From assembly GCA_018061755.1 (NCBI GenBank), contig JAGOTP010000003.1:1-64000 (forward strand): a DNA stretch of 64,000 bases, written 5' to 3'. Positions 19,020-44,115 of this stretch are shown here, one piece after another; the stretch's first letter is position 1; each line of letters begins with the position of its first letter. A program made the translations under genes and the position numbers. A model generated the notes under the pieces. The model worked only from the letters and a program-made list of their open reading frames with translations. It ran no database searches and had not been told where the DNA came from. This DNA comes from Patescibacteria group bacterium. Lineage in GTDB: Bacteria > Patescibacteriota > Patescibacteriia > 2-12-FULL-60-25.

Positions 19020-20558
19020 ATGCCTTGGAAGATTATTTATCCCCTTTTAAGCATCATTTTAGGCGCTGGTATTGGTTTGGCTGGAGGTATTTTACTCGCT
19101 CGTGAATGGACAAAACGTTTGCGCAAGAAGGAGCTTGTCGATACAGAAACTCGCATCAAACAAGTGGAAATGAAGGAGCAAGAAGTCTTGCAACGCGCCA
19201 AAGAAAAAGCCATCAAGATTCTGGAAGATGCACGCCTCGAAGAGAAGCGTGCGCTTGAAGAACTTAAGAAAGAGCAGGCAGGATTACTTGAACGTGAAGA
19301 AACCTTTAGTAAAAAGGTGTTGGAGATTGACACTTCACGTCAAGAAGTTGAGAAGATGAAGCTCAAAGCAGAAGAAGCGGAAAAGGAAGCGCTCGCCTTA
19401 CAAAGCAAATTTTCTGAAGTGCTCGAGAAAACCGCTGGTTTGAGCAAAGAGCAAGCTGTCGAGCAATTGCTCAAAAAGATCGAGGTCGATGAAGCAGAGG
19501 TGCTCGTGAATCGTTTGCGGAAAGTCGAAGAGATGACGTCAGATGAAATCGATCGCAAGGCCAAGAACCTACTCGCGCTCGCCATTCAACGCCAGGCTTC
19601 ATCGCATGTTGCAGAGACGACAACTACCTACGTCGAACTGCCAAACGATGAAATGAAAGGTCGCATTATTGGCCGCGAAGGTCGCAATATCAAAGCTTTG
19701 GAACTGCTGACCGGTTGTGAATTCATCGTAGACGATACACCTGGCATGGTGACGATCTCAGGCTTCTCCCCTATCCGCCGTCAAATCGCCAAACGTGCTC
19801 TTGAGAAATTGGTCGCTGACGGCCGCATTCAACCAAGTCGCATCGAAGAAACAGTTGAAGAAGCCAAACGCGATTTGGCAGTTGATATTCGCAAAGCCGG
19901 TGAAAACGCCCTCTTCGAATTAGGTATTCCCATGGCTGGCATCGACGCCAAATTGATTCAAATCCTGGGACGTCTGCGCTATCGCACTAGCTACGGTCAA
20001 AATGCTCTCATGCACTCCATGGAAGTCGCGAACCTTGCCGCCGTGCTGGGTGAAGAGCTAGGCGCCGACGTCATGGTCTGCAAAAAAGGCGGCTTGTTGC
20101 ATGATGTAGGAAAAGCCGTTGACCACGACATGCAAGGCAGTCATCCAGAACTTGGTTATCGTATTCTCAAAAAATTCGGCTTCCCTGAAGAGATCTGTTA
20201 TCAGTCCATCGGTCATCACGAAGACAAGCCAAAAACCTTAGAAGCCATCATCGTCAAAGCCGCCGATGCTATCTCCGGTGCTCGACCAGGTGCTCGCAAA
20301 GATAATTTGGAACTCTACGTCAAACGTTTAGAAGACCTCGAAGCCACCGCCACCCGCTTCGAAGGCGTCGAAAAAGCCTACGCCATCCAAGCCGGCCGCG
20401 AAATCCGCGTCTTCGTAAACCCCCAACAAATCAACGACCTAGCCGCCTACGAACTCGCCAAAAAAATCGCCACTACCATCGAAGCTGAATTGAAACACCC
20501 CGGCGAAGTACGTGTGACTCTCATCCGCGAGACGCGTGTCATCGAATACGCTAGATAG
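19020..20558 (+). CDS. rny: Ribonuclease Y
   Basis: A 512-residue membrane-anchored endoribonuclease that starts bulk mRNA decay. Domains in order: N-terminal transmembrane helix (about residues 5-25), a long charged coiled coil (about 30-165), a KH RNA-binding domain with GRIIGREGRNIKALE (around 215), and an HD metal-phosphohydrolase domain with LLHDVGKAVDHD (around 360), followed by the conserved C-terminal part. Length matches the family (about 515-520). It appears to be monocistronic. The first structured repeat element begins 25 nt after its stop codon. Confidence 0.96.
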   Translation: MPWKIIYPLLSIILGAGIGLAGGILLAREWTKRLRKKELVDTETRIKQVEMKEQEVLQRAKEKAIKILEDARLEEKRALEELKKEQAGLLEREETFSKKVLEIDTSRQEVEKMKLKAEEAEKEALALQSKFSEVLEKTAGLSKEQAVEQLLKKIEVDEAEVLVNRLRKVEEMTSDEIDRKAKNLLALAIQRQASSHVAETTTTYVELPNDEMKGRIIGREGRNIKALELLTGCEFIVDDTPGMVTISGFSPIRRQIAKRALEKLVADGRIQPSRIEETVEEAKRDLAVDIRKAGENALFELGIPMAGIDAKLIQILGRLRYRTSYGQNALMHSMEVANLAAVLGEELGADVMVCKKGGLLHDVGKAVDHDMQGSHPELGYRILKKFGFPEEICYQSIGHHEDKPKTLEAIIVKAADAISGARPGARKDNLELYVKRLEDLEATATRFEGVEKAYAIQAGREIRVFVNPQQINDLAAYELAKKIATTIEAELKHPGEVRVTLIRETRVIEYAR

Positions 20559-20582
20559 TCCCCATTTCCGTCATCACGTCTA

Positions 20583-20696
20583 GTTAGCTCGGAGGAAGGA
20601 CTTGAATGCTCGAGCACCTGTTTGAGCAAAACCATTAAAAATAAGAATATGGATTGCGAGTTGCGCAGAGCATGAAAGGCCTTCCTCCGAGCTAAC
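20583..20696 (+). repeat. Structured repeat element, copy 1 (upstream of hup)
   Basis: A 114-nt element. The outer arms GTTAGCTCGGAGGAAGG (20583-20599) and CCTTCCTCCGAGCTAAC (20680-20696) are perfectly complementary over 17 bp. Inside is a core nearly identical to copy 2 at 21162-21277: it begins CTTGAATGCTCGAGCACCTG and ends GCGCAGAGCATGAAAGG. The inner ATGCTC pairs with GAGCAT, and a GA/GA internal loop separates it from the outer helix. The outer arms share no sequence with those of copy 2, although both pair with themselves. It lies between rny and the hup promoter. No run of T follows, so it is not a standard terminator. Confidence 0.85.
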
Positions 20697-20703
20697 CCCC
20701 AGT

Positions 20704-20732
20704 TTGCCCAATTTGAGCGAAAAATGTATCCT
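20704..20732 (+). promoter_or_regulatory. hup promoter
   Basis: TTGCCC (20704-20709), a 17-nt spacer and TATCCT (20727-20732). It lies just after repeat copy 1 and would start transcription near 20739, about 35 nt before the hup ATG. Confidence 0.55.
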
Positions 20733-20773
20733 ATCAACAATTAATTCTTTCATTCTTTCTCTTCCCCACTTCT

Positions 20774-21091
20774 ATGGACTCACTCAAAGTTAACAAAAAT
20801 GAGCTTGCCCATCGTATCTCGGAAAAAGTTGGCGTCACCAAGAAACAGGCGGAAGACATGTTGGAAGCCTTCGTTGAAATCGTCACGACCACCCTGCAAA
20901 CTGGTGGCGAAGTCACCATCGCTGGTTTCGGCGCTTTCCTCTCAAAGACTCGCAAGCCACGCACCGGTGTGAACCCACAATCCCCACAAGAGAAGATCCA
21001 AATCCCAGCCGTCACCGTTCCAAAATTCAAAGCAGGCAAAGGATTGAAGGACGCCTTGAAAGGTACAGGTCAAGCAGAAACGACAGCGTAA
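20774..21091 (+). CDS. hup: HU-family DNA-binding protein
   Basis: A 105-residue nucleoid protein. It begins MDSLKVNKNELAHRISEKVG; the core has TLQTGGEVTIAGFGAFLSK and the DNA-clasping arm region TRKPRTGVNPQSPQEKI, then VPKFKAGKGLKDALKG. It is some 15 residues longer than the usual 90, with a short extension at each end. It is a dimer that bends DNA. It has its own promoter and a strong terminator. It is flanked on both sides by copies of the structured repeat element, each 65-80 nt away. Confidence 0.96.
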   Translation: MDSLKVNKNELAHRISEKVGVTKKQAEDMLEAFVEIVTTTLQTGGEVTIAGFGAFLSKTRKPRTGVNPQSPQEKIQIPAVTVPKFKAGKGLKDALKGTGQAETTA

Positions 21092-21108
21092 AAATATCCA
21101 TCAGTAAA

Positions 21109-21150
21109 GTAAGACACAGAGCGCTCATAAGCGCTCTGTGTCTTTTATTC
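21109..21150 (+). terminator. hup intrinsic terminator
   Basis: GACACAGAGCGC pairs perfectly with GCGCTCTGTGTC (12 bp) around a TCATAA loop and is followed by TTTTATT. It ends the hup transcript about 50 nt after the stop codon. Confidence 0.92.
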
Positions 21151-21161
21151 ATCAACAACAA

Positions 21162-21277
21162 GTTGGTACGAGGTACGTCCTTGAATGCTCGAGCACCTGT
21201 TTGAGCGAAACGATTAAAAAACAAGGATAACGGATCGCGAGTTGCGCAGAGCATGAAAGGACGTAGTTCGTACCAAC
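21162..21277 (+). repeat. Structured repeat element, copy 2 (downstream of hup)
   Basis: A 116-nt element in the same orientation as copy 1. Outer arms: 21162-21180 (GTTGGTACGAGGTACGTCC) and 21259-21277 (GGACGTAGTTCGTACCAAC); 17 of 19 positions pair, plus one G-U. The core is almost the same as copy 1, with most differences in the middle A-rich loop. Position-for-position, the arms differ from copy 1 but stay complementary within the copy, which is the pattern expected from selection on a helix. It begins only 12 nt after the hup terminator. Confidence 0.85.
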
Positions 21278-43881: not shown

Positions 43882-43910
43882 TTGACAAAGTGGATAACTT
43901 GTGCTAGTAT
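43882..43910 (+). promoter_or_regulatory. Strong promoter of the folded RNA
   Basis: A perfect TTGACA (43882-43887), a 17-nt spacer and TAGTAT (43905-43910). Predicted start is near 43917. It is among the best promoters in the window and does not face a coding start directly. Confidence 0.88.
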
Positions 43911-43916
43911 ATTGCA

Positions 43917-44115
43917 CTAGGAATTGAGCTTCGTTGTCTCAAGACTGAAGCAACCTTAAGCAGGTTTGGAGCGTGGCTCCAAACCTCCAGAAGGAAGCGG
44001 GAATTCTTGAGACAAAGCATCTCGCCAGATCTTCTTGTTGGCTGACGGGAGTGGTCAGAGAAGCTTTAATTCTGTCTAACATTTATCTTGATCTTCACGG
44101 ATCAATTCTTTTTTC
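43917..44115 (+). ncRNA. Highly folded ~195-nt RNA of unknown class (ncRNA or leader riboswitch)
   Basis: Nested complementary arms: GAATTGAGCTTC (43921-43932) with GAAGCTTTAATTC (44060-44072); GTCTCAAGA (43936-43944) with TCTTGAGAC (44005-44013); AGGTTTGGAGC with GCTCCAAACCT (11 bp, GTG loop, around 43962-43986); and CTGAC/GTCAG (about 44042-44058). It ends in a hairpin TTGATC-TTCACG-GATCAA followed by a T tract (44088-44115). A perfect promoter precedes it. The terminator ends 9 nt before the NUDIX ATG, so it could be a free RNA or an attenuating leader. I could not match it to SRP RNA, 6S RNA, tmRNA or RNase P. Confidence 0.7.

Follow-up and report, generated by a model that had tools for sequence, protein, structure and literature searches.

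The window, the whole stretch of 64,000 nucleotides analysed here from a Patescibacteria group bacterium, contains two copies of a palindromic element in direct orientation, one on either side of hup (20774-21091, + strand), which encodes an HU-type DNA-binding protein (Pfam PF00216, E 4.8e-28) and lies between the copies, outside the element. Copy 1 (20583-20696, + strand, 114 nt) starts 24 nt after the stop codon of rny (19020-20558, + strand; RNase Y, with Pfam RNase_Y_N, KH and HD domains) and lies between rny and the hup promoter region. Its left outer arm (20583-20599, + strand, 17 nt) pairs with the right outer arm (20680-20696, + strand), and these enclose a conserved core (20601-20678, + strand) of the form CTT-GA-ATGCTC ... 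GAGCAT-GA-AAG, in which the two halves of the family signature, TGTTTGAG and CGAGTT, are located at 20619-20626 and 20657-20662 (+ strand). Copy 2 (21162-21277, + strand, 116 nt) has the same organization, with outer arms at 21162-21178 (17 nt) and 21261-21277, a core at 21180-21259 and the signature halves TGTTTGAG and CGAGTT at 21198-21205 and 21238-21243 (all + strand). These positions and the shared orientation agree with the original prediction. A separate hairpin with a T-rich tail (TTTTATT) lies ahead of copy 2 and is distinct from it (21111-21144, + strand); from its inverted repeat and sequence, this is probably the hup terminator.

Only two copies of the element, the pair flanking hup, occur in the window's genome (37 contigs, 1.15 Mb). 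In most relatives, the rny–hup interval (20558-20774 in the window) includes an extra gene, presumably, as judged by eye only, for a YmdB-type phosphoesterase; the window is without that gene and has copy 1 there instead. The rny–hup junction of relatives carries no element, so synteny is uninformative at this site. Elsewhere in the window, nested inverted repeats occur at 43926-44023 (an outer one of 19 bp and an inner one of 19 bp), and the region 43901-44040 folds at -50 kcal/mol; the core of the hup-flanking element is absent from these repeats.

The cores of the two copies, each of ~80 nt and predicted to be nearly identical, share about 90% identity, and a 24-nt core stretch with up to 3 mismatches gave no chance matches in 100 shuffles. 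Copy 1 folds at -53.7 kcal/mol (z -9.1) and copy 2 at -52.5 kcal/mol (z -7.9), and none of the shuffles folds as well. When the outer arms are compared in register, exactly 17 bp form in both copies: between copies, 8 of the 17 pairs are the same, 7 have both partners replaced but remain Watson–Crick, 1 is G-T and 1 is a mismatch. The arms of both copies start with GTT and finish with AAC. The original prediction had the arms as unrelated in sequence yet self-pairing over 17-19 bp; the pairing is borne out, and the description as unrelated is nearly right, given the 8 identical pairs and the common ends. A covarying pair is also present inside the core (A46-T75 to G46-C75). The tandem GA loop (a GA/GA step) and the 6-bp ATGCTC/GAGCAT helix are present in the core as originally described, and neither copy has the T tract after the stem that characterizes an intrinsic terminator.

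The hup-flanking repeats are very probably members of an unnamed, widely scattered family of bacterial DNA hairpins. The family core is strand-asymmetric and reads CGAGsACTGTYTGAG-[variable stem-loop]-CGAGTTsCGCAG, in which the two s positions form a covarying G-C/C-G pair; written out more fully, the consensus is CGAGGACTGTYTGAGC-[apical stem-loop]-GCGAGTTCCGCAG. Both the sequence and the length of the apical stem-loop are free to vary, and the element is ~90-125 nt long across the family. The window copies, and one copy on a betaproteobacterial-looking prophage contig, have GCAC/GTTGC in place of GGAC/GTTCC, a G-C to C-G change that is compensated. The core was first met in a Lachnospiraceae genome, when a single genome from each species was scanned with a pattern, and a covariance model built from the two window copies found single copies in two same-family genomes. 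The signature TGTYYGAG ... CGAGTT, defined as the overlap of these matches, was then used to search relatives, many of which carry elements with perfect or near-perfect long hairpins.

The element occurs in relatives of the window's genome, in remoter members of its phylum, in a few Clostridia and on the prophage contig mentioned above; looser members are intergenic on an Ilyobacter plasmid (Fusobacteriota) and a Variovorax replicon. The distribution is very patchy, with up to about 11 copies per genome, and the element often begins at or over a stop codon. Within the phylum, only 6 of 380 genomes have the strict core; so do 2 of 391 sampled Clostridia and 3 of 100 genomes of a Lachnospiraceae sample. 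A reversed-pattern control gave 0 matches in the same scans. Plain BLAST with the core against 144 relatives and against phages and plasmids returned only chance-level matches beyond the window's genome. Early matches of the pattern scan to viral contigs were rejected as chance matches, and some loci with similar letters (for example L167, L121, L122 and L292-L297) were rejected as members for arms that do not match. A neighbour gene of 440-490 aa that seemed to be common to the elements was an artefact of the 1.5-kb flanks; the neighbours are unrelated housekeeping genes. The original prediction knew of no named RNA or repeat family with this core, and no Rfam family matches: a scan of the whole window against Rfam at the curated threshold found tRNAs only, permissive thresholds matched the element only to unrelated hairpin models, mostly eukaryotic microRNAs and far below the cut-offs, other family members had no Rfam match, and a literature search for the core letters found nothing relevant.

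Several further features of the family were observed. A second core variant, CTGCGGGGCTCG...CTCGAACACATCCTCG, has equally good and unique arms at five loci of genus g14 (L267, L268, L252, L255 and L263); this variant is found at three junctions (atpD, gatA and murJ) in G013 and G030, and a viral scan for CTGCGGGGCTCG...CTCGAA gave about as many matches as expected by chance. The 1.24-Mb contig C3 of G013 has ten core matches, all on one strand, and the neighbouring genes are mostly on the other strand. Two elements in direct orientation, separated by 0.6-1.1 kb, are met repeatedly: around hup in the window, in recJ of G814 and around a DUF554-like gene in G946.

The arms are specific to the site and match themselves. 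In 39 of 43 elements, the fit between an element's own arms exceeds the 99th percentile of arm pairs drawn from different elements, and arms of different elements mostly resemble each other no more than expected by chance. Among 15 Clostridia elements, both partners have changed in 25 of the 40 pairs, a number reached in 0 of 500 shuffles, and sliding the partners destroys the signal. The original prediction was correct in that the arms conserve nothing but their pairing. In four orthologous comparisons, the changes on both sides are still Watson–Crick in 9 of 9, 11 of 11, 6 of 6 and 5 of 5 cases, and one-sided changes number only 0-2 per side. In an orthologous pair at dnaK, arm changes are mostly one-sided, and this element is decaying. 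Many copies with identical arms, named in the original prediction as a finding that would speak against it, were seen in one Lachnospiraceae genome, in which the core sits in a carrier resembling a miniature inverted-repeat transposable element (MITE), but not among the window's relatives, in which arms differ at nearly every non-orthologous site; the exceptions are a pair in G089 with a common inner arm and copies in G067 with a common short inner stretch.

Comparison of the same gene junctions across four species of genus g14 reveals filled and empty sites. Three of the species carry the element at the atpD–atpC junction, the core being diverged in one of these; in the fourth (G034), the junction is empty, with 9 nt and no palindrome from the atpD stop to the atpC start. 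At gatC–gatA, two species carry the element and G030 is empty with 2 nt. In two species the element lies downstream of dnaK; at this place, G034 is empty with 17 nt and G025 has a different palindrome of GTAG type. This last palindrome (L264), the pair GTAGGGGC...GCCCCTAC, is REPIN-like and occupies the place where sister species carry the element; Y1_Tnp fragments are present in the G025 genome. Several elements occupy orthologous junctions in two or three species, which indicates slow turnover and is compatible also with a retained functional element.

At the filled atpD sites, the left arm is made up of the gene's own last codons (GTA GCT GCA TGA, GTG TCT GGA TAA and GTG TCA GCG TAA), which are homologous, codon by codon, to GTA ACC GCA TAG at the empty site. 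In each species, the inverted complement of the left arm forms the right arm, which differs from species to species. As the left arm is the native atpD 3' end, at least part of the arm is host-derived, and the other arm has been made to match it. The gene upstream of murJ follows the same pattern, with an arm over its last codons. The atpD case and the orthologous sequence comparisons suggest, on balance, that the arms are made from, or are continually matched to, host sequence.

The distribution of wobble pairs differs between the strands. With strictly defined arms, and read on the TGTYTGAG...CGAGTT strand, the CPR-like set has 36 G-T against 16 A-C mismatches (19 vs 4 by element), and Clostridia, in which the copies are related, have 24 against 1. 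With tighter arm settings, the G-T excess in the CPR-like set persists in weaker form (24 vs 12 and 21 vs 9). An earlier result of strand symmetry came from over-long arms and was reversed by the strict arms. Judging from these sequences, one specific strand appears constrained to fold. This wobble-tolerant strand is antisense to the gene with the adjacent 3' end in 27 of 37 cases (27 vs 10; p = 0.008, a somewhat optimistic value because a few loci are orthologous). This bias is the reverse of that expected for an element acting in the mRNA of its neighbours; it is compatible with folding of a DNA strand or with an antisense RNA made independently.

The element can also lie within a gene. In G814, recJ (L270 1126-2976, - strand) contains two in-frame copies, each encoding PAELATLRQSSAT. 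In an alignment to a solved RecJ sequence, one insertion falls in an unaligned stretch, and the other lies where the alignment is gapped and poor. An NCBIfam scan of the encoded peptide, made to look for known peptide models of Rickettsia palindromic elements, was empty, a weak test with 28 residues. In-frame copies are rare in the family, recJ being the one gene in which they were seen.

The patchy occurrence, the empty sites, the dispersed copies that are nearly identical and the in-frame recJ pair all point to a mobile palindrome, and the element is probably mobile rather than a vertically fixed RNA. In the Lachnospiraceae genome G386, the core lies inside eleven near-identical, dispersed MITE-like repeats of ~215 bp with common ends GGGCTGTCGCA, and G946 has near-identical copies of the element about 1.1 kb apart. 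These repeats show recent spread, and the carriers may differ between lineages. The outermost ~15 bp of the G386 repeats (L193, L195-L204) differ among copies, in most copies on both sides together. Genes of the Y1/RAYT type (Y1_Tnp, PF01797) are absent from G000, G013, G034, G067, G038, G039 and G386, the window's genome and the copy-rich G013 and G067 being among those without them, and they do not co-occur with the element. Mobilization by RAYT was rejected, as RAYT genes do not track the element.

Other explanations have to be weighed against a mobile element. A structured RNA, that is, a non-coding or intercistronic element for processing, stability or protein binding, would have arms that drift under compensatory selection and a core bound by a protein or ligand. 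The intercistronic position directly after stop codons, the very strong covariation and the conserved internal loops with tandem GA fit such an RNA, and the excess of G-T over A-C on one strand (36:16 and 24:1) is expected under selection for a folded single strand; single-stranded DNA, however, would give the identical wobble signal, and the tolerant strand is antisense to the adjacent mRNA at most sites. With the patchy distribution and empty sister sites, the two copies in frame within recJ, no recognised promoter or terminator common to family members and no Rfam match, a structured RNA seems rather unlikely. Where the original prediction saw the signature of an RNA helix, the covariation holds and the RNA reading stays unproven. 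Bidirectional transcription terminators or attenuators would account for strong hairpins at gene ends, but the T tract is absent, hup has its own terminator and several copies lie inside operons (atpD–atpC and gatC–gatA) or within recJ, so that this function is scarcely credible.

The other two alternatives concern how the arms arose. An ordinary element might have been inserted in pre-existing hairpins, such as terminators, so that the arms would be old and the core new. This was also raised in the original prediction, and arms unique to the site around a common core would be in line with it; the empty sister sites, bare junctions of 2-17 nt without a palindrome at three loci, contradict it, as do arms that extend over stop codons and a hup terminator that is a separate hairpin, and the idea is very improbable. 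A classical MITE, bounded by terminal inverted repeats of its own, moved by a standard DDE transposase and with arms that are merely old and eroded, is improbable too: the core in G386 does lie in a ~215-bp repeat with common terminal repeats GGGCTGTCGCA, but the dispersed copies outside G386 are without a common terminal repeat, erosion would cost pairing whereas the arms within a copy match almost perfectly and yet differ between copies, and one atpD arm is native coding sequence.

The explanation that we favour, with moderate confidence, is that both window sequences are an interspersed palindromic element that is mobile, with a functional core and with arms taken from, or re-matched to, host sequence. 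It would be a non-autonomous mobile element with a lifestyle comparable to those of MITEs and Rickettsia palindromic elements (RPEs). The core, folded as a single strand, would be the part recognised by a recombinase or a polymerase-linked process. The outer arms would not be carried by the element but made from host DNA beside the insertion, the end of the upstream gene being copied by fold-back, and would later stay matched by inter-arm copying (template switching), by selection for the fold, or by both. Template switching has been cited as one route by which palindromes form and stay matched (PMC6649704). Against this explanation, no transposase is linked to the element and Y1/RAYT is absent, only two copies are present in the window's genome, orthologous placement in two or three species also suits a retained functional element, re-matching of the arms could equally be compensatory selection rather than copying, and the dnaK orthologous pair has mostly one-sided changes.

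A more specific version can be put forward only tentatively: a cross-phylum mobile hairpin carrying a small strand-specific core, whose arms would be manufactured at each insertion by fold-back copying of the adjoining host sequence, usually a gene end, and then kept matched. The copying itself, by fold-back or template switching, is inferred. We know of no bacterial element for which such a mode of transposition or retro-copying has been described. If this version is right, a widespread palindrome family would be recognisable from a 30-nt signature, sister species would record directly how a palindrome comes into being next to a gene and how the match between its arms is kept, and the origin and persistence of interspersed palindromes would become testable by comparison of empty and filled sites. 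Covarying stems, the usual proof of a functional RNA, might then arise through a DNA-level process, which calls for caution.

Known palindromic elements resemble the family in part. RPEs are interspersed, non-autonomous palindromes of ~100-150 bp that lie in frame in housekeeping genes, and the recJ copies match their described habit of in-frame insertion (PMC10969869). Unlike the present family, in which the core alone is common and the arms stay matched, RPE families are alike along the whole element and lose repeat identity with time (PMC6649704); also, the CGTC end tag (PMC3733652) is absent from the ends of the element, which occurs in several phyla. REP and REPIN sequences are likewise palindromes in intergenic positions, frequently separating co-transcribed genes, and have irregular stems, but REPs are 20-40 bp long, GTAG-tagged, mostly with short loops and RAYT-linked (PMC3733652), whereas the element has ~90-125 nt and no GTAG. 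The near-perfect inverted repeats in coding sequences of nematomorph mitochondria are host-derived, are gained and lost between species and have been proposed to form and be maintained by template switching; they are without a common core and do not constitute an interspersed family (PMC6649704).

MITEs such as ERIC, RUP and Correia are, like the element, short, non-autonomous, dispersed and intergenic, but they keep their terminal repeat sequence, whereas the terminal arms of the element are host-like and differ by copy, being conserved only in the G386 carrier. Like the element, the attC sites of integrons are strand-asymmetric hairpins that directly follow stop codons, with unpaired bases that are conserved and stems that covary; at their ends, attC sites carry conserved R boxes. 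The ends of the element vary and do not form the R box pair (RYYYAAC ... GTTRRRY), and those of the window copies, GTT...AAC, have the opposite order. Unlike attC, the element is conserved at its centre and free at its ends, and its neighbours are housekeeping operons.
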